Below, in pieces: positions 8,793-62,865 of a stretch of DNA of 64,000 nucleotides. The number at the start of each line of letters is the position of its first letter. Position 1 is the stretch's first letter. Location: NCBI GenBank assembly GCA_949358305.1, contig OX442314.1, positions 61,203,369 to 61,267,368 of the forward strand, given 5' to 3'. The stretch is from Strigamia acuminata (Eukaryota; Arthropoda; Chilopoda; Geophilomorpha; Linotaeniidae). The notes below the pieces were generated by a model. That model was not told the origin of the DNA and did not search any database. It saw nothing but the letters and a program-made list of their open reading frames with translations. The position numbers and the translations under genes are program-made.

Positions 8793-9159
8793 TTATTGCT
8801 GGTGGTGTTGAAAAATTAGTTTTTCCATTTTTCTAGCCACACTCAATATTGACAGGCCTAGCGATAAACTTAAAATATTTCCGATGTCGCATATGAATGA
8901 GATAATGTCATATTCAAGCCGGTCAATAAACATTTGAATTTTGTTTGTTTCAAAATAATGGCCTATGACGACCAAATTACTGTTGTGACGTGAAGATTGT
9001 GCCAATCTAGAATACTTAGATTCTTTGCAGGGAATGTGACATTGACATGCATCTTTAACATTTGTGTCAAGAAAAGTCTTTTTGTAGATGGAATCAGTCG
9101 TTTTCGCGGATTGAGAAGTGTTGCACATGGGATATTGCAGTTGGTCTATGTAGGGTAAT
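8793..9159 (-). CDS. left-arm DEG/ENaC exon 11: final ectodomain, TM2 and stop
   Basis: After TTCCTAG the exon encodes LPYIDQLQYPMC, a CQCHIPCKESKY motif like the CxCxPPC signature before TM2, and TM2 with DIGNILSLSLGLSILS. GLS fits the GxS filter. A short cytoplasmic tail follows and ends in a stop. The right-arm counterpart is 62058-62427, about 85 percent identical by eye. Confidence 0.82.
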
Positions 9160-12100: not shown

Positions 12101-15100
12101 GTTTGATATTTTAATTACTGGGTGCATATACTGTATTCCAATACAAACATACCGGCATGTTAATTTTTCATTCAGTTTTTTGCGGTAACATTGCTTTTTG
12201 CACGGATAGAAATCGTTTGGTGGCATACATTTTCGTATTGGTGTATTTATGCGGTCAAACTATTAATAAATCAAAAAAAATATCTGAAAGTTTATATCTT
12301 TGTAATAATAACACAGTGATCAGGATTCAATCAATTAATTAGTTTAGACAACAAAGCTTGCACTACTCCGACTGGACTATTTGGAGTGTATGAACTTAAA
12401 ATGCAACTCGAAGAAAAGACTAAACAGGTTGTCTATTCATGGGGTTCATGGCTTTTGGAGTTTGGAACCAATTGATGTGTTCGATTAAAATATGACATGT
12501 TCATGTTTTCTCACCTTTATCATGCGATACCCAATACGACTTCCAAAGCCACTTCTGAATGGTAAAAATTCACTTGAAGTCAAATCCAAATCTTGGTCTT
12601 CTCGTGTTGTTATGAAAAACTTTGTGATACATTACAATCAATTAACCTTCCCATAGCCATGGCTAATACTACACATGTACAGCCATGGTCGGTCATTTCT
12701 GACTTCTTTTCAAAAACCCTTCTGCACATGTGCACAATCACATTTTTCCTGGTGCAATCGCATTTTTCCTGGTAAAAGCACATGTTTTAAGACTAATTTT
12801 AATACGCCACCTAGTGCAAACAGATGGCAAAGCAGTGTACGACGTCCCATTAAGGGGGTTTTATGTTATAAATATTAAATTATCTTAATAATAATTGAAA
12901 AACTATTCGTATTTAGACATTATAAAATAAGAAAAAAAAGTTTTTGAGGAATAACAGTTAACCTCATTAATTAATTTTCAGAAAAAAAAGAATTACAGTG
13001 ATTTTTCCACTTCTGTAATTTTTTTGACCCACCATGGCTATGGGAAGGTTAACATATGAAATTAAATGTCTGATTAATGTGCTTTTTTTACCTCGTAATT
13101 ATGGTCACATAACATCAATTTAAGAGTCTTGTAATATTTCAGAAGCGTTGTGGCTTCGCCATTGTACTGAGTTTCATCTAGACAAAAATAGAAATTGTGA
13201 TTAAATTGTTCATTCAATCAGTTAATCAGCATTTTGTATATTTTGGAGACGAAAAAATGCGTTAGACCATAAGATGTGGGGTTTCTTCATTTCGTCCTCC
13301 TTCATTTCGTTGCCGATCATTACTCTGTGGAAGGAGATTAGCTTAAAAAAACTGGTAAGGTCTAGTTTGCGGCAGGTCAAGGGGGGCGCTACCCCCCCCC
13401 CCCCCTGTTAGGCATTGTTAGGAATACGAGAAAAAAAAACCTTTGACATCAGGCAGACTATGCTAAACTAAATTAAGTGACTTCTAAGATGGACCCCGAA
13501 TTTATCAGTCAATTCTTAGAAAAATACTTTTTGAATGATAAGATGCGTAGGACCAGAAGATTTAAAATTTATAAAATTTATAAAATTTATAAAATTTATA
13601 AAATTTATAAAATTTATAAAAAAAAATTATTATTATTTTCATAATTGCCCGAATTATTTTCATGGGAATGCCCGAATTAATTTTATGGGATTCCCTAGAT
13701 TGGCCATAAGTTTGGATTATAAGACAGACTTCGGACCATAAGACGCACCCAACTTATGGTCCACTTTTCAAACTGTGTCTTATGGTCTCCAAAATATGGT
13801 AATGTAAAATAATATTAAAAACAATAGAAGTCGAAGAAAACTGAGTTAAATCGTATAGATAAAAAAATGTCGAAAGCATTTTGTCTACAATTCTTGATAC
13901 AATACAGTAAATGATTTGTATTGAGGTGTCAATTGTAATAACAAGTTTGTTTTCAATACTGTGCCACTCGATGGGAAGTTGGATATTAAGTAATTTTGGC
14001 AATCATTTACTGCAGCATACAGTAAATTTAAAGACACACCAATTAAGTAATGTGTGCATATTCCTCTTGGGGTATTTATTTCAACATCTGAAAACCGTAC
14101 CTGCCAAAAGGTAACATTTATAAGATGACTATCTGGTAAGTTGCTTTATCTTACTTACAAAATCATGTATGATTAGAGCTTTTGAAGATGAGGATTGTTC
14201 CCATAGTTCTTCTGTTGTGAGGTTTTCTCCTTTTAGATCTAGTAGGTTCAACATGTGAATGGGACAATCACTCTGACTCAGATTATTTTCATCAGCATAC
14301 ATCTTCTCCAATTCAATAATCGTCGTATTCGTTATTACACAAGCCGTGATGTTTGGAAAGGTTACATTTGCATCGTCCGTGACTGCAATGTTTATTCGTA
14401 TGGGATATGCCATGTAAGTCATCAATTTGAAATAGATAATGACCAGAAACAGAGAAGTGCAGCCGAGATAAACGACCTTTTCCAATATGTTTTGAATACC
14501 GCTGCAAGGAATTTGCTTGTTTTCTTTCAGGACGGATGAGAAATGGGTTTTTGTTTTGAGCAGATAATTCCATACTTTGAGGTAAATTCTACTATTGTTT
14601 CGTGACGTTGCTTTACGTTTTCGATAATTGATGATTAATGTGATCAAATCCAAAAGTGAAAGTATCGACATCCCGAGGTAAAGGCCAATGTTTCCGGCTG
14701 CATCAATGAGTAGATCGACAAATCCATAAGCGAATCTTTCTTTGATGATTTCAATAACAGTTGATGCTGCTTCCTGTTCCCATTCTGTCAACGGGGCATC
14801 TGATGTTGTAAATGTGTGGAATTGTATCTCTTCTATTTGAGTGCACATTCGGTTGCACAAGCACTTTAATTCTGAGTTTATTTTTCGTAGTTTAGTAAGA
14901 ATGCTATAGTACAGCTTATATGTACCATTGGAAGCATTGCATGTGTCGCCTGTCTTTCCGCTCATAAATGGGAATCTGAATAAACAATAATATTTAATTA
15001 TATTAGTGTTGTGTTTACTCACAGGAATAACCATTTTAAATGAATTTGTGAACAAAGTGATTGCTCACCTGCAAGGTTGTTGACTGTAAAAATCTTGAAG

Positions 15101-18100
15101 GCATTTCTCATGACATTTGATAAAATCCTTATTGTCAATGCATGACTTAGATGATGTATTCAGAAATATAAACTATAATTACATACAATGTAAGCTCTAC
15201 ATAGGACATAAAAGATAGGACATAGGACGGGTCCCACAAACTTGTCCAGTCTAGGTAATGTCCGTTCTGTAGGGCGTATACATCTCGCTGGTCTGGACAT
15301 GTGGCATTTGTCCAGAGAGATGTATACTAGGGTTGCACCGAATATTCGGTTTATATTCGGTTATTCGGCCTATTCGGCCTGAAAACCGAATATTATGTAT
15401 TCGGCCGAATATCAACCTGCTATTCGGCCGAATACATAATAATAATAAAATTAGAATCATTTGAATTTTGCAGTGAAACAACTTCACATTTACAGGTCAA
15501 AATTGCATTTTTCATACAAAAAATTTTAATTTTCACTATTAGATTGCAATTATTACCTAAAAAACACAAATTTTACAATAAAAATTCAATATTTTATTTA
15601 AAAATGATATTTTAAAGCAAAAATTGCATTTTTTCTGTAAAAATTGCTTTTCAGAGGCAAAAATCACACTATTGAGGCAAAAATAGCACCATTGAGGCAA
15701 AATTCACTATTTTTTGGGTAAAAGGAATATTTTAGAACGTAAAGACTGCATTTGTTTGATAAAAAGTAAATTTTTTCAGCCAAAAATGGCTTTTTTTCAA
15801 CAAAAAAATTTTTTTTTTTAAATATTCGGATATTCGGCCGAACACCGAATATTCGGCCATGGTATTCGGTTCCGAATATTCGATATTTGGTTATTCGGCC
15901 TTTTTGGTATTCGGTGCAACCCTAATGTATACGCCCTACAGAACGGACATTTCCTAGACTGGACATTAAAACAATTCTAAATAAATTTAATTTTCTGATG
16001 AAAGAATCAATAAAAATTAAAAATTAGTTTATTGTCAGGTTCATAAGGGTTTAAAATCAAAATTTACGCTAAGGGGTAGTGCCAATGCACAGTACTGCTA
16101 AAACGACGTAATGTCTACGTTTGTGGAAACCTGCACATTACGACGTGCACATTATGTAACATACAGTATGTGCACATGGCGTAACGGTACCTTTAACGCA
16201 AATTTCCTTTTCCAACCCTTGTGAACCTGCAAAAAATTTTAATTTTTATTTAAATTTTAGTGTTTTCAATTATTTTTGTAATTTGTTTCAATAGAAAATT
16301 GTCATTATTGCTTTTGTCCGCACTGCACGGTGATTTTTCCCGATACGGGACGCATCACTTTGTCCGGATTCCGGAAGGGAAAGCTGTCCGGACCAAAGAG
16401 AAAATTTTGCATTGCTCTATACTGTCTGGACCATACAGCTGTCCGGACGGTGCTCTGTCCGGGCTACACAGCTAAAGTAAAAAAACTATTGTCACGTCGT
16501 AGTCGACTTTTTAACAATGGTTTCGGAAATTTGAGAATTTCCAGGGATTGTGATAACCAGAAAATTTAGGTTCGCAGGCGCTGCAACTCTTAAAACTTTG
16601 CCGGGGGTGGTAGCTAGGTTAAGACATCGTCTATTCGTGAAATCTGTATTTTTATGGGTGCAGGATTCAATTCGGGCGCCGTACAAAATTGCGAACGTTG
16701 ATACTTCGAATTTAAGACCAAAATATCGCTCTTCACTAGGGAAAATGTCGTCATATGCTAGGCGTACTTACGAAGAGTATATTTCTTCTCCTGGACACGC
16801 GCAAACGTTGGGTGAACGCGCAAACAGGTACCAAACCGCAGACAACGTCGTCTAACCGTCGATAATGAAATGAATACGCAATTGAGACGAGTATGAGTTC
16901 AAAATGTCTAGGCTGAGGAGGAAGTCACAGTCGTGGCATAAAATGTATTGACGAATTAAGACCGTCGAATACGCCGCTTTTCCAGTAATTTGTACGCAAA
17001 TAATGGGCAAATAATAAAGGTTGTGGTTAGATAGCCAACCATGAGAATTCGGGCTGCATAATGACCGTATGCGTTGAGACGCAACATAAATCGCACTTGG
17101 AAATCTTCCTAGTTGAGACAGGAGATGTTGACTAGTCGAAGGCGAAAAGTATTCTCTCTGTCAAAAATGTCTTGACAGAACAAGTCACCTCTGATCACAT
17201 GTCAAAGGCCAAGCCAATTCCCAATGGGGACTGGGCAGAAAACAGGCGATCAGGGGTGAAATATGCAAATTTAGAGTACGATTATATCAACTTATTGCAG
17301 AATTCTCATGAATTGTCTGGATGGGGTGATTAAAACCAGGCCAAATTAAAGATAAATATCAAAAATAAGGAAAATAAAATAAAATAAAATAATAAATTTA
17401 GATTTGGGAAAAATAAAATAATTTAGGGAAACTAGAACAATTTCTCAATAAGATTGGGGAAAATTTAAAGGAAAGGCGCAAAATGCGCTTAAAATTTCGA
17501 AAATTATTACTGCTCAAAGTCAGGACCGTGACATTCCCCCCCACCTAGATGTTTATTATATGGTTTTTATATAATCAACATCTAAATGGAGTTAACAAAC
17601 ATGATTGATAAAAATTTGAACACATAAATAAATAAAAATAATGAATCAACAATAGCAATCTCACTTATGAACACATAACAAAGGTAGGGATTTATTTAGA
17701 CAGACGCAACAGACGCACAACTTGGCGCAATTACAGACAAGAACAAACAAACACAAACAAATGGGTTTAGGAGAGGAATATTGTAAAAAATCGTTTGATT
17801 AAAAATTAATAGAATCAATAGACGTTTAGGCGCTAATTACGACTAAATTCTAAATAAAATAATAAAATTTGTTAAATTATTTGATAACACTTGAAATTAA
17901 CAATGGTATTTTTTGTTATGACTAGAAAATAAAATAATTTAAGATTAATTAACAATGCCTATGGGTGACAAAATTTCTATAAAAATGTAAATTATTAGCA
18001 AATAAAAATACCGATTAGGCGCTGATTTGGCGTCAATTATCACAATATAAAGATAGCAAAATTTCAATGATCACAAATGGTTAATAAAAATGATTAGTAA

Positions 18101-30100: not shown

Positions 30101-31256
30101 TTTAAAACCACCACCAGATGGTTCAAAGTTCATAATTATAGCATTAACATATTGCGCCCTCTATAAAATTAATAAAGAACTACAAAAAACCTAAACAGCG
30201 CTTCAACTAATTGACCTGAAAAGTGTCCATAAATCCCTTATGCCTCCGAAGGTTAAACAAATATCATACTCTATTCATAAAATGTATGTAAAGCAACACC
30301 TTGGAGTAGACGGTAAGGGAATTAATCAAATAATGATGGTAAATACCTCTTGCAAACTAAATTTACTTCTTATTAGTTGATTTGAATTTATAGAGGCTGG
30401 TATATCAGATCTACCTGTTATAGGGGCTGACACCTAAATGTAAATAAATTTTAATGTTTGAAATTTGCTTTTATTATTGTAGTCAATATATTTACGGAAA
30501 GTATGCCTGGGGGACAGAATTTTGGTCGATTGAACCACATTTTCAATTTGCCGTATAAATTTCGACCCGTAATATTTTCTAGAAAACACCCAATGACTCC
30601 ATGGTAGGAGTTTATTGCAGTTAATGGTCGATCATAACTTACCAGCCGTTATCACAGCGCAGGTTCCATAAACGGACAATTCTTTGCTTATTTGAATATT
30701 TGGTTTGTCTGTAGATTTCTGTAAGAAGACTGGTAGTGTTTTCCATTTCAGTTGGCAAAATAAATTGAGATTTCCTTACCGAAATAAATTCCGTTTTGTT
30801 TAATACAGGAATATCAATATCCCATAATGCAGACATGTTGACATTCTTATTAGCAATTAACTTATGCAGTTGGTTAAAACAATCAAATTCAATTGGTGTT
30901 GAGTTTAAAATATTTTTCCATGCATGACTTGTGTATGAGTTTTCGCTCGTGCACACTTTGAGAACTGGGAATGCCATCTCGGTTGCGTCTCTTGTATAAG
31001 CGTCAGTAGCGATTGGGTTCGAAAAGAAATATTCGATTTTCTGCCCAGTTTGATAGCAGCAGAGTGCGAGGCAGCTCGTTAGAAGTAAACTCCAAACCAA
31101 TTTGATTTTAGCGCTTTTCATAGGATCGATTAACGTTTGTAATTCGGGAAATGATTCTTCGAACATCCATAGTCGTGGTATTTGTTGTTTTACAATCTTA
31201 CGGATTTTAGACTTTACCGCTGCTGCAGCTGCATTTCTACACCTTGAAATCCTCAT
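8793..31256 (-). CDS. two-module DEG/ENaC sodium channel gene, left arm (multi-exon, split by gypsy B)
   Basis: Exon-like blocks in transcription order are 31256-30780, 30718-30643, ~30592-30434, ~29797-29602, 15172-15069, 14975-14159, 14100-~13912, 13177-13092, ~12620-12515, 12259-12132 and 9159-8793. Module 1 has TM1 and a FPVLKVC motif in exon 1, Cys-rich extracellular exons, and TM2 with the GxS filter (GLYLGMSILS) in exon 6. The same exon then runs into a second TM1 and FPNITAC motif. Module 2 ends with TM2 (SLGLSILS) and a stop in the last exon. DEG/ENaC channels are trimeric cation channels of the plasma membrane. The His-Gly gating motif before TM1 is not visible. Splice joints of the third, fourth, seventh and ninth blocks are unresolved. 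Gypsy B sits at the end of the fourth block, so expression may be lost. Confidence 0.72.
9160..9800. other. intron sequence and A/T-rich repeat, left arm
   Basis: This is intronic to the DEG/ENaC gene. The stretch 9310-9350 is the paralogous empty site of the solo LTR found at 58618. The stretch 9400-9560 matches the reverse complement of 58380-58560, part of a foldback repeat. No gene is seen. Confidence 0.6.
9831..11511 (-). pseudogene. degenerate Ty1/copia retrotransposon fragment
   Basis: Minus-strand pieces occur in copia order. A piece at 11511-11293 is of unclear identity. A GAG-pre-integrase piece at 10973-10752 has WHARMDHLN and CDACVKSK. An integrase core at 10651-10337 has VKTDNEGEF and LAERANRT. 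An RT start at 10124-9831 has VAQGFKQKPGIDFTEVFSPV and LDIKAAYL. IN before RT defines Ty1/copia. The pieces are in different frames and truncated, with no LTR recognised, so the copy is dead. It sits in the intron between DEG/ENaC exons 10 and 11 of the left arm only. Confidence 0.85.
11600..11755. repeat. TTCG/CGAA-rich inverted-repeat tract
   Basis: The tract has dense reiterations of GTTCG and CGAAC in both orientations (for example AAGAACGAAC, TTCGTTCAC, GAACGCGAAC), able to form hairpins. It is not coding and is probably the remnant of a foldback element. Confidence 0.55.
11787..11941. mobile_element. 155 bp hAT-type MITE with 8 bp TSD
   Basis: The ends are CAGGGCTGGACTGG and its imperfect complement CCAGTCCAGCACTG. 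ATCCTAGG flanks it at 11779-11786 and 11942-11949. An 8 bp TSD and CAGGG-type termini are the hAT signature. The element is GC-rich, unlike its surroundings, and has no ORF. Confidence 0.88.
12132..12259 (-). CDS. left-arm DEG/ENaC exon 10 (Cys-rich)
   Basis: It is bounded by TTAATAG and AATACA/GTATAT. It encodes FDRINTPIRKCMPPNDFYPC, then CYRKKLNEKLTCRYVCIGI. The Cys spacing is of ectodomain type. The donor leaves phase 2, which joins correctly to exon 11. In the right arm the same donor reads GG instead of GT. Confidence 0.7.
12515..12620 (-). CDS. left-arm DEG/ENaC exon 9 (approximate 5' border)
   Basis: It encodes REDQDLDLTSSEFLPF and ends IGYRMIK at a clear AAAG/GTGAGA donor. It joins in phase 0 to exon 10. 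The paralogue ends at 56571. I could not fix the acceptor. Confidence 0.6.
12646..13048. mobile_element. 403 bp piggyBac-like MITE (TTAA target)
   Basis: The terminal inverted repeats are CCTTCCCATAGCCATGG at both ends, flanked by TTAA at 12642-12645 and 13049-13052. The paralogous right-arm intron (near 56447) has a single TTAA at this spot, an empty site. TTAA target duplication defines piggyBac-type transposition. There is no ORF, so it is non-autonomous. Confidence 0.85.
13092..13177 (-). CDS. left-arm DEG/ENaC exon 8 (86 bp)
   Basis: It has a TTTGTCTAG acceptor and a TACGAG/GTAAAA donor. It encodes a segment with ETQYNGEATTLLKYYKTLK and LCDHNYE. The right-arm equivalent (56315-56400) has the same length and borders. 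Confidence 0.68.
13559..13625. repeat. 9 bp microsatellite (TAAAATTTA)n
   Basis: About six to seven head-to-tail copies of a 9 bp AT-only unit, followed by an A run. It is intronic. Confidence 0.85.
13626..13911. other. intron with decayed repeat
   Basis: Near 13700-13800 there are inverted copies of a CATAAGAC..CTTATGG-like motif. A related motif (GGGTGCGTCTTATAATGC) lies in the right arm near 56007. It looks like an old DNA transposon end, unclassified. Confidence 0.45.
13912..14100 (-). CDS. left-arm DEG/ENaC exon 7 (module 2 ectodomain)
   Basis: After TTTTGGCAG the frame from exon 6 continues with VRFSDVEINTPRGICTHYL and then a long open stretch. GICTHYLIG corresponds to the Gly-x-Cys motif seen in exon 2 of module 1. 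The 3' border is not certain; an ACT/GTATTG near 13912 is a candidate. The right arm has a 5 bp deletion inside this exon. Confidence 0.6.
14159..14975 (-). CDS. left-arm DEG/ENaC exon 6: TM2 of module 1 fused to TM1 of module 2
   Basis: This single 817 bp exon has no stop. It starts after CAG/A, in phase with exon 5, and encodes a Cys-rich ectodomain end (CNASNGTYKLY, CLCNRMC). A pre-TM2 stretch and TM2 follow with GLYLGMSILSLLDL; GMS fits the GxS selectivity filter. A basic cytoplasmic linker of roughly 45 residues comes next, then a second hydrophobic segment (VVYLGCTSLFLVIIYFKLMT) and FPNITACVITN, the start of a new ectodomain. It ends at GATTTT/GTAAGT. The arrangement implies one polypeptide with four membrane passes. 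The right arm conserves the whole exon (54805-55606). Confidence 0.82.
15069..15172 (-). CDS. left-arm DEG/ENaC exon 5 (104 bp, Cys-rich)
   Basis: It has an ATTATAG acceptor and a TTGCAG/GTGAGC donor. It encodes FIFLNTSSKSCIDNKDF followed by IKCHEKCLQDFYSQQPC. The Cys pattern ending in QQPC resembles the post-M2-proximal CxxC..CLPPC region of DEG/ENaC ectodomains. Length, phase and borders equal those of right-arm exon 54609-54712. Confidence 0.78.
15243..15965. repeat. palindromic MITE interrupted by a hAT element
   Basis: The outer arms are near-perfect inverted repeats: TGTCCAGTCTAGG at the left and CCTAGACTGGACA at the right, each continuing through GTCCGTTCTGTAGGGCGTA. Without the inner insertion the element is a roughly 120 bp hairpin. 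It lies in the intron between DEG/ENaC exons 4 and 5 (left arm). Confidence 0.75.
15328..15924. mobile_element. 597 bp hAT-type MITE with 8 bp TSD, nested in the palindrome
   Basis: The ends are TAGGGTTGCACCGAATA and its complement, with CGAATATTCGG subterminal repeats. ATGTATAC flanks it on both sides (15320-15327, 15925-15932). The interior is A/T-rich with no ORF, so the element is non-autonomous. Confidence 0.88.
15966..16485. other. left-arm intron, repeats of unknown type
   Basis: No gene. Around 16060-16200 there are inverted GTGCACATTA..CGTAATG motifs, and 16340-16470 repeats CTGTCCGGAC-like words. These are probably fragments of old elements. Confidence 0.4.
16490..17533 (-). repeat. 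3' LTR of element B
   Basis: It has the same length as the other LTR (1044 bp), with TGTCACG..CGTGACA ends. A short ORF inside both LTRs is a by-product of their near identity and is not a gene. Confidence 0.95.
17534..17546 (-). promoter_or_regulatory. polypurine tract of element B
   Basis: The minus strand reads AGGTGGGGGGGAA immediately before the 3' LTR. This is the expected position of the plus-strand primer. Confidence 0.85.
17547..18355 (-). other. 3' untranslated region of element B
   Basis: About 0.8 kb, strongly A/T-rich, with no ORF. It lies between the stop of the extra ORF and the polypurine tract. Confidence 0.7.
18356..21229 (-). CDS. element B ORF3: unknown protein in the env position (628 aa, in-frame TAA, 322 aa)
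   Basis: Two ORFs, 21229-19343 and 19324-18356, share one frame and are separated by a single TAA and six sense codons, so they are probably one ~957-codon gene. No signal peptide or membrane segment is visible, so it does not look like an envelope protein. Residues 56-83 hold CPVCSGTGFE and CRACRGGG, a CxxCxGxG pair like the DnaJ zinc centre. The middle is Ser/Thr-rich. The C-terminus ends in a hydrophobic, probably helical region. It shows loose similarity in layout to ORF3 of element C. The ATG at 21229 is preceded by a possible intron (donor near 21343, acceptor near 21252). Function unknown. Confidence 0.65.
21230..21762 (-). other. spacer between pol and ORF3 of element B, with splice-site-like motifs
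   Basis: Non-coding on the minus strand. Donor-like motifs are ATA/GTAAGTAA near 21638 and ACC/GTAAGTAC near 21343. A pyrimidine-rich acceptor CATTTCTTTTAG ends near 21252, 22 bases before the ORF3 ATG. This suggests that ORF3 is read from a spliced subgenomic RNA (inference). Confidence 0.45.
21763..26517 (-). CDS. pol: gypsy B Pol (protease, RT, RNase H, TAG, integrase)
   Basis: The frame opens by -1 shift at 26511-26517. The first part runs to a TAG at 23326-23328. It holds a protease with LLDSGAQTCV, an RT with FVYLDDVII (about 24600) and an RNase H with QTDASYSGLGAALMQ. The tail after RNase H is Pro/Gly-rich and acidic. Directly after the TAG, in the same frame, follows a 513-residue integrase part. 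It has an HHCC finger (CGHLGVEKTLHRL and CEPCQRAK), a core with YIDYYGK, SDNAPAF and AERLNQ, and a basic C-terminal domain. The single amber codon could be read through or be a mutation. Confidence 0.92.
23326..23328 (-). other. in-frame TAG inside pol of element B
   Basis: The minus strand reads GAC GAT TAG ACA TTT. The frame is open for more than 1000 codons before it and more than 500 after it. The position is the natural linker between the RNase H tail and the integrase. Confidence 0.9.
26487..28403 (-). CDS. gag: gypsy B Gag (638 aa)
   Basis: The N-terminal third is Gln/Arg/Glu-rich with predicted coiled coil (residues about 60-190). A retrotrans_gag-like region (about 310-420) has FLGKLYAHMFTMG and QRWWMALTPKLNNWEDFELI. 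The C-terminus has a single CPVC pair near the frameshift site instead of a classical CCHC knuckle, so RNA binding may rely on the Arg-rich parts (inference). The ATG at 28403 is the first in the frame, about 150 bp after the 5' LTR. Confidence 0.9.
   Translation of the reverse strand: MASRDALSESSVSDVDAEIAHTLPLPDSPIHEPDQQQDLLVQPISTDVPLSNPWRTYAQIEADQLQHEREAAAARDQWEENRRHLQDSLIERRRVVDGMRAVREEIQRRPPPPYQPTFMQPEPQQHRRNPPALSMEALMRVLREDRRELQHELRQELLESMRQIRRELNDRVEEFIHSHNERTRPEPSAPEAGSGATRRGREGTRGADFSFGDTGRASGPRRTGSYSPRRRQQHSQQGDTTFNVPRDPPTNLDPDSAQRGSQGIPLSASRQHPHTRSQFSLESENQRQAAQVGRYKLKVEKIPYFDPDEATFDTVDLFLGKLYAHMFTMGAPEGIYLKVYVVLALRNRAQRWWMALTPKLNNWEDFELIFRQVFSINSALANVKLSQRKQKPGEPTMSFLSEMIHYLNIAGYKDKGLQWERVQGMMQTQVVQLMRSWGIRTIDDAVKMGNDVDNRLQLYSLRTFEYKQCGVSDQEMPLPAGVGPATHTRTEEEKLNQQSTSSRSGRFSRFNKVFTALLEDMSICAIDPEDANGEETNKDPPKESASAAAQKSDVHVMNATTTPTPRTETQHTCAKDVVIFPAAKEAPSEPKLPKNAMWRKTPTDKWFMSDRQSWRPVCPVCGKEWSRQSGNASGLLKA
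26511..26517 (-). promoter_or_regulatory. -1 frameshift site (GGGAAAC) of element B
   Basis: The gag frame reads TCG GGA AAC GCA. The heptamer G GGA AAC is in canonical phase, about 20 bases before the gag stop. The -1 frame continues as KRKRPAQSMSPES, the Pol start. Confidence 0.8.
28532..28549 (-). promoter_or_regulatory. primer binding site of element B
   Basis: The minus strand reads TGGCGAGCTTGACAGGAT, five bases after the LTR end. Its first eight bases fit the complement of a tRNA-Arg 3' end, and the rest fits only partly. The tRNA identity is tentative. Confidence 0.6.
28554..29597 (-). repeat. 5' LTR of element B
   Basis: 1044 bp, the same length as the 3' LTR, flanked outside by the TSD copy CTAT (29598-29601). 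Confidence 0.95.
29602..29797 (-). CDS. left-arm DEG/ENaC exon 4, ending at the gypsy B insertion
   Basis: A CCTACAG acceptor precedes a Cys-rich stretch (IIRDCSDPIS, LCTCLCNPWF, VQCIGYIANLD) that matches right-arm sequence 54435-54594. The coding match stops at the TSD of element B, which begins at 29601. The 13.1 kb element therefore lies at or within the 3' end of this exon. Confidence 0.6.
29798..30433. other. left-arm intron between exon blocks 3 and 4
   Basis: A/T-rich, with no ORF. The words AACCTTC(A/G)AAGGCAT near 29820 and CCTTATGCCTCCGAAGGTTA near 30236 are inverted copies, so 29818-30255 may be a MITE of about 440 bp. Confidence 0.4.
30434..30592 (-). CDS. left-arm DEG/ENaC exon 3-like block
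   Basis: The frame beginning SRKYYGSKF is the one with synonymous differences from the right arm (CAC/CAT, TTT/TTC), so it is likely the coding frame. It encodes a charged ectodomain segment with SPRHTFRKYID. I could not find a donor/acceptor pair that joins it in frame to exon 2, and an in-frame TAG lies near 30434. The boundaries are therefore uncertain. Confidence 0.45.
   Translation of the reverse strand, partial: WVFSRKYYGSKFIRQIENVVQSTKILSPRHTFRKYIDYNNKSKFQTLKFIYI
30643..30718 (-). CDS. left-arm DEG/ENaC exon 2 (76 bp)
   Basis: It is bounded by TTCTTACAG and G/GTAAGT and continues the exon 1 frame. It encodes a short extracellular segment with YGTCAVITA, comparable to the Gly-x-Cys-x-x-Phe/Thr motif of DEG/ENaC ectodomains. 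The right-arm exon has the same length and splice borders. Reading straight through from exon 1 without splicing would give an artificial 213-residue ORF. Confidence 0.75.
30780..31256 (-). CDS. left-arm DEG/ENaC exon 1: N-terminus, TM1, start of extracellular domain
   Basis: The ATG at 31256 follows a 3' splice-like TTTGCAG/G, so an upstream non-coding exon is likely. The encoded part has a basic cytoplasmic N-terminus, a Trp/Phe-rich stretch, one hydrophobic segment (VWSLLLTSCLALCCYQTG), then FFSNPIAT and the family-typical Phe-Pro..Val-Cys motif (FPVLKVC). The exon ends at TTTCG/GTAAGG. The paralogous exon is 52465-52935 and a truncated third copy lies at 33831-34045. Confidence 0.8.
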
Positions 31257-47819: not shown

Positions 47820-47896
47820 TTTTTACAATAAAAGGTGCAAGAAAGAAACAGTAAGAAAGTCGAGAGTCCCGTTATATAATACTACAAATTTTAGTT

Positions 47897-47914
47897 CAAA
47901 TCGACAGGCCCCCA
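47897..47914 (-). promoter_or_regulatory. primer binding site of element C
   Basis: The minus strand reads TGGGGGCCTGTCGATTTG, two bases after the LTR end. The first seven bases fit tRNA-Pro, but the remainder fits only with gaps. The tRNA identity is tentative. Confidence 0.6.
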
Positions 47915-47916
47915 AG

Positions 47917-49060
47917 TGTAACAATCTCGAATGTAGTAGACTCAAGACTGCTAGGATTGCTTTTAAAAAGACTTACAAACACTAAAAAATAATTACTAAG
48001 TTTATAATTTAACTCTCTGACTTTTAATAAAAATACTTTGCTCTGAAAGGGGATAATTCCGATCCGGAATTATCTTACATTAAAATATGAATAAATGATA
48101 ATTTACAATGCTGGGTTTTCCAGACTTTGAGAACAGTATGAAATAGAAAGATTAATTAATGTATGATTTCACGACAAAATAACTTATAATTAGGAATAGA
48201 GAAATAAGGAAAAATACACTAGCGATGAAGATTATTGATTCCGTCCGAAATCTTCTTATCGCGTCCAATCTTTCGACGTGAGCGACGGAGTTCGCTTAGA
48301 CGTCAAACTTGAAGTCCAACCTCGCTTCTGTCCTCGTTACGGTATGCGGCTCGGTCGGAGCGGCGATCAACTCGAGATACGTGGGTTGTGGTTGCGTCTC
48401 GTCCGTGGCGTCTTCGTACGTCTCGGGAATTGTTTGCAGCGGTATTCTACCACTCATACAAGCGGTTACAAACTGTAAGCGGAACTCCGCTGTCTTTAAC
48501 GGGAACTCCCGTAAATTAGGACGTCTTACAGCTGGCAGCGTGTTGAATCTTCTTCCCTCGGTCCAGCGTTTACTGCGGCGGTGGACGAGCGTTCTAGCCG
48601 TGGCGAACTGAAGATTCTTGACTCTTTTGTGGCTAAGAGTGTTGGCCTGACTCTTACTTGGAGAAGAGTGTGATCCCTCTCTTCATGTTGGGAAGAGAAT
48701 TACCAATTGTGTATCTTGAAATAATCTTATATTATTTCAAGAAGTGAGCCTAAATCTGAAGTGAAGTTTTCTCCCATAACAAACAATGATTTCAGTGGTT
48801 TTCAGTTGTGTGTTTTTCAGGAGGTGTTTTCAGGTTCAGGTTTGGTTTCAGACTGAGCTCTCTACAGAATCTCTCACTGCTAACAGGATGTAGCACATCC
48901 TGTAGTCCCTAGATCTTATCTTGTTTCCCACACAAGATAGGGGCTACATCCTGTAGTGCCTGGATGATTCTTGCAATCCTTTTGGTACTCAAATTAGACT
49001 CACATAAAATTATTAGATTTAAGGAATTTCCTTTATTAGTCGTAATTTGGGATTACCACA
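47917..49060 (-). repeat. 5' LTR of element C
   Basis: 1144 bp, same length as the 3' LTR, followed by the TSD copy AAAC (49061-49064). Confidence 0.95.
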
Positions 49061-52464: not shown

Positions 52465-52935
52465 ATGAGGATTGCAATGAGTAGGAAAGCGGTTGCGGTA
52501 AAGTATAAAATCCGTAAAATTGTACAACAACAAATGCCACAACTTTGGATGTTTGAGAAATCATTTCCTGAATTACAAACTTTAATTGATCCCATGAAAA
52601 GCTCTAAAATCAAAATTATTTGGAGCTTACTTCTAATGAACTGCCTTGCAGTCTGTTTCTATCAAACTGGGCGGAAAATTAAATATTTCTTTTCAAACCC
52701 CATTGCTACTGACGCTTACATGAGAGATGAAACCGAGATGTCATTCCCAGCTTTCAAAGTATGCATGAATGAAAACGAATACGTACGATATGCGTGGAAA
52801 AATATTTTAAACTCAACACCAAATTCAGTCCATTGTATGAACAATCTACACAAGTTAATTGGTAATGAAAATGTCAACTTGGCTGCATTATGGGATATTG
52901 ATCAACCTGTATTAAACAAAACTGAATTTATTTCG
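52465..52935 (+). CDS. right-arm DEG/ENaC exon 1
   Basis: It starts MRIAMSRKAVAVKYKIRK and has TM1 (IIWSLLLMNCLAVCFYQTG), then FFSNPIATDAY and FPAFKVC. The donor is TTTCG/GTAAGG. The open frame read past the donor adds ten intron-encoded residues and should be ignored. Confidence 0.8.
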
Positions 52936-52996
52936 GTAAGGAAAAACCCCAATTTATTTGATATAAAATAGATATAAAATAGCAGACTTCTTACAG

Positions 52997-53072
52997 AAAT
53001 CAATGGACAAACCAAATATCAAAATAAGGAATGAATTGTCCACTCTTGGAACCTGCACTGTGATAACAGTTG
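52997..53072 (+). CDS. right-arm DEG/ENaC exon 2 (76 bp)
   Basis: It has a TTCTTACAG acceptor and a G/GTAAGT donor. It encodes KSMDKPNIKIRNELSTLGTC, in frame with exon 1. Same length as the left-arm exon. Confidence 0.75.
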
Positions 53073-53122
53073 GTAAGTTATGATCGACCATTAACTGCAA
53101 TAAACTTCTACTACAGAGTCAT

Positions 53123-53308
53123 TTGGTGTCTTCTAGAAAATATTACGGGTCGAAATTTATACGGCAAATTGAAAATGTGGTTCAATCGACCACAATTCTG
53201 TCCCCCAGGCACACTTTTCGTAAATATATTGATGACTACAATGACAAAAGCAAATTTCAAACATTAAAATTCCTTAAAATTATAGATGTCAAGCCCTATT
53301 CCCGGTAG
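53123..53308 (+). CDS. right-arm DEG/ENaC exon 3-like block
   Basis: The frame SSRKYYGSKFIRQIENVVQS is shared with 30592-30434. Several differences between the arms are silent in this frame only. The joint to exon 2 is unresolved. Confidence 0.45.
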   Translation: MVSSRKYYGSKFIRQIENVVQSTTILSPRHTFRKYIDDYNDKSKFQTLKFLKIIDVKPYSR

Positions 53309-53591
53309 ATCTGATGTATCAGTCGCTGAGAGTTCAAATAAAGTAATAAGAAGTAGATTTGGTTTACAAGAGGTATTTGCCATCACCATTTAATTAATTC
53401 CCCTACCGTCTTCCCCAAGGTGTTATATTACATACATTTTATGAGTACAGTATAATAATAATAATAATAAAAAAAACAAAAAAGATAAAAATTTAGGAAA
53501 AATAGTGAAAATGTTGAAAGATTTAGAGTCCTGAAAAACAATGTTTCCTACTACAGAGTACAGTCATGAAGTAATAGTGCGACATAATATA

Positions 53592-54399
53592 CAGGGTGTC
53601 CCAAATGAACGAAGCCAGTCAAATAACGAAAAGACCATTTGAGGAAGATGAATGAAACGAATGTAGTACTAGTAAACTAAGTGAGGACATTTCAAAAAAG
53701 TGAAAAAATTTGACCTCTGACCTATTCTTCAAAGTCATTCCAACTCTAACTTCTAAACTAAGACTGTTAAAGCAAAATTCTCAATTGAAAAAAGAAAGCA
53801 CCTTTTATTTAATAGAAAACTGCTCATCAAATTTACTCCGACACAATAACAGATAAAATTACGAACAAAATAAATCATGAAAAAGTCTTGATCTTGGTTT
53901 TCGTTTTTGTATTTTTTGACTTTTTCATAAATTTATTTGTCAAATATCATTTAAAATATCAGTTAAATTAATAACAATTCATGACTGCATAATAATTTGC
54001 AGTAGTACTTAGAATGTCAGCAAAATAAACTCACTTTTCTTGGAATGTTTTGACTTTTTCACGCTTTATTTTTTTCGTAATTTTATCTGTTATTGTGTCG
54101 GAGTAAATTTGATGAGCAGTTTTCTACTAAACTGGAATGTTCGTCACTCCAATTCTTTCGTTTGTTCACTTGTTATTTTGTGACGCACGTCAACGTCGCG
54201 TTCCCGCGATGTCACGAGATCGCGTACAGCGCCACCTGTACTTTTATGCCAATAAACGCATTCATGCAAATACCATGCCACGGACTGGTCACTTCGAGGT
54301 TCCTTCATTTTATACATCCAACTACATCCAGTGCAATCAAGCACTCACTCAAATGGTCTTTTCGTTATTTGACTGGCTTCGTTCATTTGGGACACCCTG
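53592..54399. mobile_element. 808 bp mariner-like non-autonomous element
   Basis: Perfect terminal inverted repeats of about 52 bp start CAGGGTGTCCCAAATGAACG. The flanking dinucleotide is TA on both sides (53590-53591, 54400-54401). A second inverted pair (ACTGCTCATCAAATTTACTC) sits inside. No transposase ORF. It lies in an intron of the right-arm gene, just before exon 4. Confidence 0.85.
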
Positions 54400-54434
54400 T
54401 ATACAGCCACACTGTCTGGTATGCAAGTAACAAA

Positions 54435-54594
54435 CATCCTTAGTTATCAAGCAATGCATGACACGTGATTGCGGTCATCCAATCAGCACAATAAAGCACA
54501 AATCAAAAGGAAATAACAGAGATACATGTCCATGTAATCCTTGGTTCATGGTACAGTGTATAGGGTGCATTGCTGATCTTGAATATTTTTTTAC
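54435..54594 (+). CDS. right-arm DEG/ENaC exon 4
   Basis: It encodes MTRDCGHPISTIKHKSKGNN and CPCNPWFMVQCIGCIADLE, matching the left-arm exon at 29797-29602. No AG acceptor precedes it at the homologous place, and the following intron is nearly deleted. Confidence 0.55.
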
Positions 54595-54608
54595 GTATGT
54601 AATTATAG

Positions 54609-54712
54609 TTTATATTTCTGAATACATCATCTCATCCATGCATTGATGAAAAGGATTTTATCAAATGTCACGAGAAATGCCTTCAAGATTTTTACAGTCA
54701 ACAACCTTGCAG
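54609..54712 (+). CDS. right-arm DEG/ENaC exon 5 (104 bp)
   Basis: ATTATAG acceptor, TTGCAG/GTGAGT donor. It encodes FIFLNTSSHPCIDEKDF, then IKCHEKCLQDFYSQQPC, and continues in phase into exon 6. Confidence 0.78.
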
Positions 54713-54804
54713 GTGAGTGATCACTTTACTGACAGGAATAATCATTTAAAATGAATTTGAGAACAAACACAATACTAATATAATTAAATATTCTTGCTAT
54801 TCAG

Positions 54805-55606
54805 ATTGCCATTTATGAGTGGAAAGACAAGCGACACATGCAATACTTCCATTGGTACACTTAATCTGTACAAAAGCATTATTAATACTCTACGAAAAAT
54901 AAACTCAGAATTAAAGTGCTTGTGCAACCGAATGTGCACTCAAATAGAAGAGCAGATAAAATATGTCACATCTACTACATCTGATGCCCCGTTGACAGAA
55001 TACGAAAAAGAAGCAGCCACAACTGTTATTGAAGTCATCAAAGAAAGATTTGCTTATGGATTTGTCGATCTACTCATTGATGCAGCCGGAAACATTGGCC
55101 TTTACCTCGGGATGTCGATACTTTCACTTTTGGATTTGATCACATTAATCATCAATTATCGAAAACATAATGCAACGTCACAAAACAAAGTATGGCATTA
55201 TCTGCAAAAGAATAAAGGTCATTTGTCATCCCTACTGAAAGAAAACGAGCCAATTCCTCACAGTAATATTCAAAACATATTGGAAAAGGCTGTTTATCTC
55301 AGCTGCGCCTCTCTGCTTCTGATCATGATCTATTTCAAATTGATGACTTACATGGCATATCCCATACGAGTAAACATTGCAGTCGCAGACGAAGCAAATG
55401 TAACCTTTCCAAACATTACAATTTGTATAATAACAAATCCAACAATTATTGAATTAGAGAAGATGTATGCTGGTGAAAATAATCTCAGTCAGAGTGATTG
55501 TCCCATTCACATGTTGAGCCTACTAGATCTAAAAGGAGAAAACCTCACAATAGAAGACCTATGGGAGCAATCATCCTCTGAAGAAGCTCTATTCACACGT
55601 GATTTC
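54805..55606 (+). CDS. right-arm DEG/ENaC exon 6: TM2 of module 1 fused to TM1 of module 2
   Basis: This 802 bp exon has no stop. It encodes LPFMSGKTSDTCN, CLCNRMC, TM2 with GLYLGMSILSLLDL, a linker (KVWHYLQKNKGHLSSLLKEN), a second TM1 (YLSCASLLLIMIYFKLMT) and FPNITICIITN. The donor is GATTTC/GTAAGT. Relative to the left copy it differs by whole codons only (net five fewer), which indicates selection on the frame through the linker. Confidence 0.82.
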
Positions 55607-55667
55607 GTAAGTAGGATAATGCAACTTACTAGATAGTCATCTTATAAATGTTACCTTTTGACAGGTA

Positions 55668-55755
55668 CAGTTTTCGAATGTTGAAATAAATACCTCAAGA
55701 GGAATATGTCCACATTACTTAATTGGTGTGTCTTTAAATTCATGCTGCAGTAAAT
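55668..55755 (+). CDS. right-arm DEG/ENaC exon 7, frameshifted
   Basis: After TTTTGACAG the frame gives VQFSNVEINTSRGICPHYL and then breaks. The left copy reads AATTTACTGTATGCTGCAG where this copy has AATTCATGCTGCAG, a 5 bp loss. The frame stops a few codons later. Confidence 0.6.
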
Positions 55756-56314
55756 GATTGCCAAAATTACTTATTATCCACCTTCCCATCGAGTGGCACA
55801 GTATTGGACGCAACCCTGTTATTACAATCGACACCTCAGTACAAATAATTTATTGTGTAGAGAATTGTAGACAAAATGCTTTTGACATGTTTCAAGCTTT
55901 ACGATTTTACTCAGTTTCCTTCGACTTCTTTTGTTTTGAATATTATTTTACATTACCGTATTTTGCAGAACTTAAGACACACTTTGAAAAGTTGACCAAA
56001 TGTTGGGTGCGTCTTATAATGCAAACTTATGGCAAATCTAAGGAATCTCATAAAATTAATTCGAGCAATTATGAAAATAAAAATAAAAAATTAAATTTAA
56101 AATTTTATATATTAAAATTTTAAATCATTTTGGTCCTGTGCATCATATGATTCAAAAAGTTTTTTTTCTAAGAATTGACTGAAAAATTTGGAGTAAATCT
56201 TATGAGCTAACGCATTTTATCGTTCACAAAATATGCAAAACGCCTATTAACTAAGATGGATTTTACTGAAAATGAGTGAATAACAATTTAATCACAATTC
56301 CTCTTTTTTTCTAG

Positions 56315-56400
56315 ATGAAACTGCGTACAACGGCCAAGCCACAATGCTTCTTCAAATTTACGAGACTCCTAAATTAAGGTTATGTGACCAATACTACGAG
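56315..56400 (+). CDS. right-arm DEG/ENaC exon 8 (86 bp)
   Basis: TTTTTCTAG acceptor, TACGAG/GTAAAA donor. It encodes ETAYNGQATMLLQIYETPK. Same length as the left-arm exon. Confidence 0.66.
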
Positions 56401-56479
56401 GTAAAACAATGCACATCAATCAGACATTTAATTTCATATGTTAATTGATTGTCATGTATCACTAAGTTTTTCATAACAA

Positions 56480-56571
56480 CAAAAGAAGACCAAGATTTGG
56501 ATTTGACTTCAAATGGATTATTACCACTTGGAGGTGGCGTCTTAGCAGGTGTTGGGTATCACATGATAAAG
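56480..56571 (+). CDS. right-arm DEG/ENaC exon 9 (approximate 5' border)
   Basis: It encodes EEDQDLDLTSNGLLPLGGG and ends GYHMIK at AAAG/GTGAGA. Confidence 0.6.
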
Positions 56572-56872
56572 GTGAGAAAACTTGAACATGTCATACTTTA
56601 GTCGAAAATCAAAAAGCCAATTACCCGACTGCTTTGATAGTGTTCCAAGCGAGTAGGTTTTATGGGTTGCAAAACTAATCTCAATGTGCAAATGGTCTTC
56701 AAATAGACTGTTCACACTTGTAGAAATTAGAAATTTCTAAAAGTCACAATTTCTACAAAAGTGGTCCAAGTGTGAACTAGGCATTAGACAACTTCAACCC
56801 CAGTGAATACACAATTTTCATAGTGGACACTTATTTAGTCTTTTCATCAACTTGCATTTTAACTTCATACGA

Positions 56873-57630
56873 AGCCAGAGACTTTTAGGAACATGATTAA
56901 CCATGAGACTCATGATAAAATAAACTTTTTGAAAGTGGACAGACATCGTTCGGGCACGGGAATGCCCAAACAGCGCCGGACGCTTGACACGTGTAGATAA
57001 GAGACTCACAAGAGGCTGTATAAATGGTTTATGGCCTTTATTCAGTGTCTAGGGGTCAGTATCTTATGCCTCTTCGATGCTCCTGCTGCATTGCTGCAGC
57101 AGACCTGCGACTACACGCAGCACACGTGGTCATATCGATGTTCAGTGTGCCCATGGTGATTGCTCACGGTACTGGGACTGGCTTACTGGCCAAGTCCCTA
57201 AGTATCACCATGGTGAACAAGAGTGTAGCAGAACTTCTTAGGTGTGAACCAGAGCTGTTCCCATAAGGCTCTGGGCTCCAATAGGATGTTGGGGCTTATA
57301 TAGCCCACTCTTGCACCATGGGTACGAGAGTACCTCTTCCCATTGGTTGTGGAACCGGTAATCGGATATGACGTCATCCTGGTCACTGTCCCTCAACCGT
57401 CAACGCCACCTGGTGGGTGGGGTTGGGCTGGGCCATGCGGGAATGGTTGTAGTGGCCGGTTATCAGTCACAACTTCAACCACATTTTTCCAGGGACAACT
57501 CTGGACTAAATTGTAAAACAAAAGTTTTTGAGTCAAGTAAAACTTTTTTTTCAAAATTTTGGGTTGGCACAAAAAACATTCAATCATACGGGATAGCCTA
57601 GGCCCCAAAAAAACGTGCCCAGTGAACACT
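56873..57630 (-). mobile_element. arm-specific insertion with LTR-like sequence
   Basis: The left-arm intron reads continuously from TTCATAC to ACTCCA, whereas the right arm has about 750 bp between these words. Read on the minus strand it has a TATA-like CTATATAAGCCC near 57290 and an AATAAA signal near 57040. It may therefore be a solo LTR or a fragment. I could not find a TSD. Confidence 0.45.
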
Positions 57631-57741
57631 CCACAAAGTTCAGTCGGAGTAGTATGAGCTTTGTTGTCTGAACTAAGATTGATTGATTGAATCACTCTGT
57701 AATTATTACACTGACAAATACTTTTTTAAATTCATTAATAG

Positions 57742-57869
57742 TTTGACCGCGTAAATACACCAATAAGAAAATGTATGCCACCAAACAATTTCTATCCATG
57801 CAAAAAACAATGTTACCAGAGAAAACTGAATGAAAAACTAACATGCCGGTATATTTCTATTGGTATACA
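57742..57869 (+). CDS. right-arm DEG/ENaC exon 10, donor lost
   Basis: TTAATAG acceptor; encodes FDRVNTPIRKCMPPNNFYPC and CYQRKLNEKLTCRYISIGI. The left copy has ACA/GTATAT at the end; this copy has ACAGGATAT, so the GT is gone. Confidence 0.65.
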
Positions 57870-58004
57870 GGATATGCACCCAGTCAAAAAACATCAGTTC
57901 CTAAACCAAACATCAGAAAAAATATTTAATCACTTCTTTCCTACAAATTTTAGTTATTCTCTCTCCATATTTGACTCATTTAACCCCCAAAAAAGACTTA
58001 AAGT

Positions 58005-58610
58005 CCTCCAACTAAGAATATTGTTTTCCCCCTAATGTTTAATCCCCCGAATAAAACGTTTTACACCCCAATTATTGCCAAAAAACCCCAATTTTTATTT
58101 TTAGTTTTATTGTGAACCCAATGCTCACTTAGCCTTCAATGGTCATCCTCGATGGTGTTTCTGACCTCTGGTGGATAATAATATCCTGCAAATTTACATC
58201 TTTGCAAGTTTCAGTCAACATTTTCAATCTTGTCATGCCACAAATGATTTCTTGAATAGTTATGACTTGGACATCCACTGCCTGACCAAAAATTATTTGT
58301 GGCATATCAAGTTTGAAAACGATGACTGAATCATAAAACACGCATATGCCCAGTGTTTGCAAAGATGATATTTGCAAGATATTGTTGTCGTACCCCAAAA
58401 GCAAAAACTGTACCCACCGATCAGAAACATCATCGAATGCTATGAAAACATTGTGTTCAAAATAAAAATAAAAATAAAAATTGGGATACATTTAGCAATA
58501 ATTAGGGTTAATATGTTAGGATGTGAAACTTTTATTCGGGGAAGTAAACATTAGAACTACCGGTATAGCTTTTTTGAAGGTTTTTTGAGTTGGGACATTT
58601 TAAGTCATTC
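58005..58610. repeat. foldback repeat (arms of about 170-200 bp)
   Basis: 58015-58175 (CCTAATGTTTAATCCCCCGA onward) is mirrored by the reverse complement of 58380-58560, including ATTTTTATTTTTA and GGTGTTTCTGA words. One arm has a counterpart at 9400-9560. Intronic. Confidence 0.6.
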
Positions 58611-59936
58611 TTGGGTGTGTGACGATTCTACTTTTAGGCTAAATTATTAGCCAAATAAGCGAGTTAGATAAATAGGTCGGAACAAGACGTTACTAATTCT
58701 AGTAACAACCTGACCGAGATAAGCTATGGGAAATGCGCAAAGTGAACGAATAACAGAATGGCTACCAACTTACAGTTTTACATATTTTATTACGAGATAC
58801 AACTGGATCTGGGTTCTACGCTCGTGTAAACAGGCGGCAACATCAGGTTGAGGATCCGGGCGGGCCAGAGGGATAGGGCTGACTTCGCGGCATCGTCACA
58901 GATAACGCTACGGAGACGTATTTGGTTCCGCGGCACAAACAACCATAACTGCGAAGAGTCCTTTGCATTATTCGAGAATATTCTTTAGAATACTCTAAAT
59001 ACTAACCGTTCTAAATCTATAAAGAAAATATAACAAATAATTGTTATATGTTTATTATATGGGCGGGGACAGTCACGATGGTAGAGAGAACCATCAAGGA
59101 AAGTTTTGACGCTTCCATCCGCCAGCATGCCTTACGATGACGAGATCTCTTGATCAAGCACCGAGTATGTGTTTGTGCACGACAAGGTCGCTATCGGTGG
59201 TACATTCTTTGAGATTACCAATACCCAAGTATTTGTTTAGCGCAGCATTTGGAATACTGCTCACGGGCTACCAACCCGGCGTGCTGCCTCTATACGGTCC
59301 CATTACTGACCGAGCAGAAGGACCAACAAGCCAACTAATTGACCGGACCTGAGTAGATGATTTACCGACTGGAGACACAACGGATGCCCCAAACACAGAA
59401 GGACCACGGGCTACTTGTGTAACCGACCCTGAGATGTCAGTTTACTGACTGCGAACACTAATGCCCTAACACAGAAGGACCACAAGTTACATACGTAACT
59501 GACCCTGAGTCTGCCTTTTACATCAACCACCCATACTTCTGTCGAAGTAGTTAGTTAATGGGCCTACTTACAACTAGCAAGGCCCACCGTGCAGGTACAT
59601 TACATTATGCGACCGTATGAAAACTCCTTATCCTTTAAGATAGCGAGCTAATCACTACGGGACCATTTGATTACCGGAGTTAGTCTTCCCGGAAATACGA
59701 TACAACGAAGAATAACTCAATAGTAATAATACATATTGGATAAGACAACGAGGGGGCCTGATGTGTCGATAAAGAGAGAGAGATCAAACGATAACCATAA
59801 TACAATACAAACACACAATATTTCAACATTCAAAGCAAGCCGAAACGCAGGTTAGAAACCAGAACTATGGGATTAGCTATAGCCAATCAGATGCGAGAAC
59901 CTAGGATTTGTAGAGCACTTTAGTCCGGACCTAGTA

Positions 59937-61611: not shown

Positions 61612-62057
61612 TAGTAGACTGGGTCCAGAAGAGTCCGATCGTTAAGTAAGCCTATAACATGTGATATTGATTCATTAGAATCAATAATTTGTCAAATAAT
61701 ACTTTATTCAGAGCAAAAAATAATATATATTTATATATTGAGTTATAATAATCATTAAAACTCTTATTTCCTATATTTGAACTACGTGCGCTAAATGAAT
61801 AGTGCCATCTAGTGTGAACATTAGTTATTACGGTTTTATAACCGTCACAGGTGGAAAATGAGTCAAAGATAGGGGGTTACTAAATCGAGTCCTATTGTTT
61901 TAGGCTGAAACTTTCAGATCAATTTAATAGCGATTAACAGAGCACATACAGTACATTTTACTTTGAAATTAACTGTACATGAAATGGAATACTGAAGACA
62001 GATTTGTAAAACGCACAAACCACTAGATCAAAGCTATCAAAAAATTTTTCTCCCCAG

Positions 62058-62427
62058 ATTACCGTACATAGACCAACTGCAGTATCCCATGTGCAACACT
62101 TCTCAATCGGCGAAAATGACTGATTCTATCTACAAAAAGACTTTTCTTGACACAAATGTAAAAGATGAATGTCAATGTCATATTCCCTGCAAAGAATCCA
62201 AGTACTATAGCTTGGCACAAATTACAAGTAACAGTAGTCCTCTGATCAATGGAATAGGCCATTTTTTCGAAACAAACAAAATTCAAATTTTTATTGACCG
62301 GCTTGAATATGACATTATCTCATTCATATGCGACATTGGAAATATTTTAAGTTTATCGCTAGGTCTGTCAATTTTGAGTGTGGCAAGAAAAATAGAAAAA
62401 CTAATTTTTCAACATCATCAGCAATAA
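62058..62427 (+). CDS. right-arm DEG/ENaC exon 11: final ectodomain, TM2 and stop
   Basis: After TCCCCAG it encodes LPYIDQLQYPMC, CQCHIPCKESKY, and TM2 with DIGNILSLSLGLSILS (GLS filter), ending EKLIFQHHQQ stop. It matches the left-arm exon at 9159-8793. Confidence 0.82.
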
Positions 62428-62699: not shown

Positions 62700-62865
62700 A
62701 TTTTGCTCCCTTTCTTCGATTTATAAATAAATGTCAATACTTTAAGTCTATCACTAGATGTGTGAATATTGAGTTTGGCAAAAAAAAATGGAGAAAGATT
62801 GTTTTTCGACATCAGAAAACACCAAATGAATTGTGTTTTAATATTCAGAAAAGAACAAGAGCATA
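62700..62865 (+). pseudogene. decayed tandem copy of the TM2 exon end, copy 2
   Basis: The words TGTCAATACTTTAAGTCTAT, GAGTTTGGCAAAAAA and TTTTTCGACATCAG repeat the end of exon 11 with frame-breaking changes. It has a counterpart at 8700-8780 in the left arm. Confidence 0.6.

Follow-up and report, generated by a model that had tools for sequence, protein, structure and literature searches.

Results

Two DEG/ENaC modules joined in one gene

In a 64,000-nt window of the Strigamia acuminata genome (the whole stretch of DNA analysed), we identified two genes in inverted arms, each predicted to encode two DEG/ENaC channel modules in tandem, with a single exon running from the second membrane helix (TM2) of module 1, across a linker, into the first membrane helix (TM1) of module 2. 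A natural tandem gene is well supported, since there are two diverged copies with a common intron layout, together with domain matches, hydropathy and selection on both modules. The original prediction had been of a four-pass tandem dimer; the fused two-module gene in it is borne out by this evidence, while translation as one chain stands as the simplest reading of the sequence. It is probable that the fused architecture is that of a functional one-chain gene.

The window has a GC content of 39%, contains no N and is eukaryotic DNA. Both gene models were built by hand from blocks conserved between the arms, and splice sites were picked by hand as GT-AG sites that kept the frame. The count of 20 GT-AG introns out of 20 is therefore a product of construction; the evidence lies in identical sites working in both arms. 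The plus gene comprises 11 exons (52465-62427, + strand) and encodes 783 aa from ATG to TAA without an internal stop, with an in-frame stop immediately 5' of the ATG (ORF begins at 52456). The minus gene, its inverted paralogue, likewise comprises 11 exons (31256-8793, - strand) and encodes 789 aa from ATG to TAA without an internal stop. The two proteins share 79% identity, and of 4182 sites aligned between the arms, 570 are different (13.6% divergence). The features of the two genes are as follows.

Plus gene
52465..52935, + strand: exon 1, with start, N-tail, TM1 of module 1 and FPAFKVC
52997..53072, + strand: exon 2, module 1 ectodomain
53137..53219, + strand: exon 3, module 1 ectodomain
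53286..53372, + strand: exon 4, module 1 ectodomain
54609..54712, + strand: exon 5, module 1, cysteine-rich part
54805..55606, + strand: exon 6, the fused exon, with the end of module 1 including TM2 (GMS), the linker, and TM1 and start of module 2
55154..55288, + strand: linker within exon 6, 45 codons, no Met
55665..55725, + strand: exon 7, module 2 ectodomain
56315..56400, + strand: exon 8, module 2 ectodomain
56467..56571, + strand: exon 9, module 2 ectodomain
57742..57848, + strand: exon 10, module 2, cysteine-rich part
62058..62427, + strand: exon 11, TM2 of module 2 (GLS) and stop TAA

Minus gene
30780..31256, - strand: exon 1
30347..30718, - strand: exons 2-4 (30718-30643, 30578-30496, 30433-30347)
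15069..15172, - strand: exon 5
14159..14975, - strand: exon 6, the fused exon, with the linker at 14629-14477, 51 codons, no Met
12153..14100, - strand: exons 7-10 (14100-14040, 13177-13092, 12619-12515, 12259-12153)
8793..9159, - strand: exon 11, TM2 of module 2 (GLS) and stop

An additional module 2 exon at about 55750-55838 is partly open, but including it would take an intron only some 24-29 nt long, and no exon of module 1 corresponds to it; it was dropped, and exon 7 is joined to 56315 instead. Two runs are identical in both arms. The longer, of 115 bases (55052-55166), spans TM2 of module 1, and about 3e-5 such runs would be expected at 13.6% divergence; the second is of 62 bases (53131-53192). 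The inverted arms may have undergone gene conversion, or synonymous sites may be constrained in these runs.

The fused exon

The exon at 54805-55606 had been proposed to run without a stop from one module into the next, and analysis of its reading frames showed this to be so: it is stop-free in one frame, within a stop-to-stop ORF of 54788-55636, and is bordered by CTATTCAG on the 5' side and GTAAGTAG on the 3' side. As predicted, TM2 with its GxS filter (GMS), YGFVDLLIDAAGNIGLYLGMSILSLLDLITLII, is encoded in this exon before the linker, and the second TM1, AVYLSCASLLLIMIYFKLM, follows the linker and leads into the FPxxTxC motif as FPNITIC. The final exon (62058-62427) likewise encodes its own TM2 with GLS, then TAA, and the inverted copy (14975-14159) is open as well, the gaps between the two copies in exon 6 (3 and 18 nt) being whole codons. 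Scanned alone, the fused exon scored 43.8 bits (plus) and 37 bits (minus) against Pfam ASC (cut-off 23.6).

The plus linker comprises 45 aa with 7 K/R and 3 D/E, and the minus linker 51 aa with 12 K/R and 2 D/E. No in-frame ATG is present between the two inner membrane segments in either arm, and one fused chain is thus the simplest reading. The dN/dS of the linker between the arms, a check suggested with the original prediction, was 0.85 (0.37-2.95) and did not detect constraint, and the three codon positions of the linker carry similar numbers of differences (6, 8 and 8). Homology of the linker to the module 1 N-tail was considered, as BLASTP alignments extended into the linker, but was rejected on shuffling (p 0.36-0.67 in all four comparisons).

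Both modules belong to the DEG/ENaC family

Scanned singly, all four modules matched Pfam ASC (PF00858), with scores of 54.0, 55.3, 48.1 and 60.8 bits against a cut-off of 23.6. Hydropathy analysis (19-residue mean of at least 1.4) revealed four hydrophobic segments in both chains, located at 47-65, 372-390, 436-454 and 751-769 in the plus chain, and 12 cysteines were counted in every large ectodomain loop; each module hence comprises two membrane helices flanking a large cysteine-rich ectodomain. The GxS of TM2 is present as GMS in module 1 and GLS in module 2, and the FP...C motif after TM1 as FPAFKVC (minus FPVLKVC) in module 1 and FPNITIC (minus FPNITAC) in module 2. A His-Gly motif before TM1 is usual in the family, although not universal, and was absent on sequence inspection from the N-tails and linkers of both arms. 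The family features tested were all found, save this motif and the family trait of one module per chain, as each predicted chain holds two modules and four hydrophobic segments. From the hydropathy segments and the basic linker, which fit such a placement, we infer that both tails and the linker are cytoplasmic.

Among solved structures, the best match both of the chain (5.4e-18) and of the module profile (2.1e-27) was PDPNaC1 from the centipede Scolopendra mutilans (PDB 9jf7). BRTNaC1 of that centipede and then ASIC1 came next, a ranking suggestive of a myriapod or other arthropod source. Matches to the transcription factor MvfR in the PDB (E 0.014-0.11) were set aside as chance.

Both modules are under selection

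Comparison of the two arms gave a dN/dS of 0.50 (0.39-0.66) for the whole gene, 0.56 (0.37-0.86) for module 1 and 0.40 (0.27-0.60) for module 2, all values in this section being derived from one sequence pair with a possible conversion tract. For the second TM2, in module 2, the ratio was 0.06, and for TM1 of module 2 it was 1.07 (0.40 to no upper bound), so that constraint was not detected there; exon 3 contains no synonymous change between the arms and hence yields no ratio. All four coding indels between the arms (6, 3, 18 and 3 nt) keep the frame, against 3 of 15 indels in the seven introns (of 10) that were short enough for alignment. Neutral evolution was simulated with 10% substitutions in each of two lineages and no indels. 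Module 1 remained open in 0 of 2000 simulated pairs and module 2 also in 0 of 2000. The linker stayed open in 422 of 2000, and its openness alone is therefore weak evidence. Together, these results indicate purifying selection on both modules, and module 2, being under selection, is presumably translated.

These data also bear on whether the locus consists of decaying genes or an assembly artefact, with the fusion a recent accident without function. Transposable elements abound in the window, exon 1 has left a third copy close by that is broken, the TM2 exon has left degenerate pieces there, and the dN/dS values of exons 4 and 9 are 1.28 and 1.42, with wide intervals. Against this, both arms are open throughout, which the substitution-only simulations never reproduced for either module, and the whole-gene dN/dS is well under one. 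The 570 differing sites show that the arms, both of which carry the fusion, are not one stretch assembled twice. We regard decay or artefact as highly improbable.

Genomic surroundings

The window holds LTR-type retrotransposons and a Tc1-type element. Two LTR-type elements (16488-28851 and 35665-48213), which by reading are of Gypsy type, have near-identical direct repeats and long gag-pol-like ORFs; one lies within intron 4 of the minus gene and the other between the arms. The Tc1-type transposon (60198-61232, - strand) lies in intron 10 of the plus gene and contains an open transposase of 344 aa (DDE_3, HTH_Tnp_Tc3_2), flanked by inverted ends of 262 nt (59931-60192 and 61356-61617) that are 95% alike. 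In intron 4 of the plus gene, a further element at about 53590-54403, seen by eye, has long inverted ends terminating in ACAGGGTGTCCCAAATGAACGAAG.

At 34389-33835 (- strand), the beginning of exon 1 and the sequence upstream of it occur a third time, in a broken copy that has lost the start Met and in which TM1 is followed by a stop. Past the stop of each gene lie degenerate pieces of the TM2 exon (62727-62787 and 63065-63138, + strand; 8768-8708, - strand), hinting that the last exon has been repeatedly duplicated. A minisatellite of 21-bp units in about 33 copies (63329-63991) is located 3' of the plus gene.

Splicing and processing across the linker

In both arms, the linker contains a 74-nt GT-AG stretch (from 55190 in the plus arm and 14575 in the minus arm) that would break the frame if spliced, the plus chain then ending one codon on (SQNK*) and the minus chain passing out of frame. 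Its donor score is 2.2 in both arms, lower than that of all 20 modelled donors (3.9-10.0), while its acceptor scores of 5.2 and 2.9 fall within the range of the modelled acceptors (-2.5 to 8.7). A scan for hidden introns with a matrix derived from the 20 modelled introns, under whose donor threshold the 74-nt stretch falls, covered exons 1, 6 and 11. It returned 2 candidates in exon 1, 4 in exon 6 and none in exon 11 of the plus arm, and in the minus arm 2 candidates, both in exon 1; the four in plus exon 6 have one common donor, in the module 2 ectodomain beyond TM1. The hexamer AATAAA is present in each exon 7 (55685 and 14080) and also in the plus linker (55211); over the window, such hexamers have a frequency of 2.5 per kb. 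Given the 74-nt stretch and these hexamers, a minor form consisting of module 1 alone is possible.

The same elements could allow one locus to make two proteins: alternative splicing or polyadenylation would close off module 1 behind its TM2, and module 2 would begin from a different first exon or an internal start, the two proteins having an exon in common without being fused. The GT-AG stretch with acceptors in the modelled range, and AATAAA in exon 7, are indeed common to both arms. This arrangement is nevertheless unlikely, as the donor is weaker than every modelled donor, and as module 2, which is under selection, has its TM1 in exon 6 only and is preceded by a linker free of Met; to be made separately, module 2 would therefore require a further first exon, not seen here, joined to a site within exon 6.

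Alternatively, the whole chain might be made and then cut in the linker, in which case the fusion would merely couple the equal production of two ordinary subunits. The linker is basic (7 K/R of 45 and 12 K/R of 51) and evolves fast, but a cytoplasmic linker would not meet the lumen-cutting proteases of the secretory pathway, which do not reach cytoplasmic segments. Engineered ASIC fusions did give smaller bands, ascribed by the authors to cleavage or incomplete synthesis (PMC4529235). On balance, cleavage of the linker seems very unlikely, and translation as one four-pass chain after splicing is likely.

Origin of the fusion

Comparison of module 1 with module 2 by BLASTP gave an E value of 9e-19. 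The modules share 17-19% identity with each other, lower than their identity to PDPNaC1 (23-25%). Each module contains five introns, positioned 0-2 alignment columns apart and with phases 0, 1, 0, 0 and 2 in both. This shared six-exon layout indicates that two genes of one six-exon type, arranged head to tail, have come to share one exon, the last of the first serving as the first of the second. The exon layout and the full-length homology of both halves fit a natural tandem fusion of genes of the same family, with a single reading frame across the junction in exon 6 of both copies. Since both arms carry the fused exon, the fusion is older than the duplication of the arms. In a tree of six sequences, module 2 grouped with BRTNaC1 with weak support (62/57), and either a fresh internal duplication or a fusion of two old neighbours may have given rise to the gene.

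Predicted assembly

Solved DEG/ENaC structures are trimers of two-pass subunits (for PDPNaC1: PMC12714832). In the proposed mechanism, the gene would be spliced and translated into one four-pass chain with cytoplasmic tails and linker. The chain would act as a built-in concatemer, in which modules 1 and 2 sit adjacent and take two of the three subunit places in a trimeric cation channel. Two joined modules leave one of three places empty, and the third subunit would therefore come from elsewhere, as a module from a second chain or as a separate subunit. We put forward this assembly tentatively, at somewhat under an even chance. Unlikely, though conceivable, is that three chains with six modules form two tethered trimers within one complex, for example one per module, or that two chains form a four-module channel; if true, a gene fusion would break the DEG/ENaC rule of three.

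In the concatemer arrangement, two subunits with unlike pore-lining residues would always be delivered together. By alignment, D372/G375/S376/G378 of PDPNaC1 (numbering of PMC12714832) correspond to D/G/N/G in module 1 and D/N/I/S in module 2. A leaning towards Na+ would be predicted for module 2, since it has a serine at the place of Gly378, and Gly378Ser is reported to increase the Na+ preference of PDPNaC1 (PMC12714832). The share of each module in selectivity thereby becomes predictable and measurable.

Artificial fusions have served to study the composition of mixed channels (PMC10329638, PMC4529235). Two-subunit laboratory fusions of ASIC1a gave typical ASIC currents, which need not stem from whole chains because the smaller bands mentioned above were also seen; the authors of that study argue for tetramers (PMC4529235). 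With two diverged modules naturally fused, and the fusion kept in both gene copies, a channel of three places would receive two of its subunits in a fixed 1:1 ratio, which opens its assembly to direct testing.

Comparison with known channels

The original prediction held that a four-pass tandem dimer is not a described architecture in this family. In part this stands: no report of a two-module DEG/ENaC protein was found in open-access papers, as judged by titles and abstract openings among the matches listed. Domain databases do contain some predicted proteins with two ASC domains. A search with the full chain, in which shared five-residue words were required, screened 6341 candidates (431-1370 aa) and returned no fused relative with an E value of 10 or less; this requirement makes it a weak search, and close relatives may be absent from the database. 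Under the same requirement, a search with the module alignment found no relatives at 0.01 among 4247 candidates. With PDPNaC1 and BRTNaC1 added to the alignment, it found 10 of 2104, of 380-595 aa and including those two proteins, and it could not reveal a double-module protein because it admits only about 196-625 aa.

PDPNaC1 can be aligned with both modules over almost the full length of each, has a short ectodomain in common with them, and is 25% (module 1) and 24% (module 2) identical to those of the plus arm. Like both modules, it is without the His-Gly motif; its gene is reported to have nine exons, and the protein to form a homotrimer by cryo-EM (PMC12714832). It is a protein of 421 aa with one module and two passes, whereas the fused chains have two modules and four hydrophobic segments. 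BRTNaC1, also from Scolopendra mutilans (PDB 8ymr and others), matched the module profile over almost the whole module (1.3e-23) and was the top match for the second half of module 2 in a single-sequence search. It comprises 431 aa with one module, contains a His-Gly pair in its N-tail, and is 20-21% identical to the modules.

The ASICs (e.g. 2qts, 6ave) have family and topology in common with the fused chains, the best ASIC1 chains matching the module profile with E values of 2e-10 to 3e-10. Unlike the fused chains, they are two-pass single subunits; in the studies consulted, ASIC chains with two, three or four subunits fused together were made in the laboratory (PMC4529235, PMC10329638). The fused chain may also be set beside the two-pore K+ and four-domain Na+/Ca2+ channels, which are unrelated and have fourfold pores. 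Duplication and fusion gave these channels at least two pore modules per chain. Their ring is closed by two or four modules, whereas the fused DEG/ENaC chain sets two modules against a ring of three.
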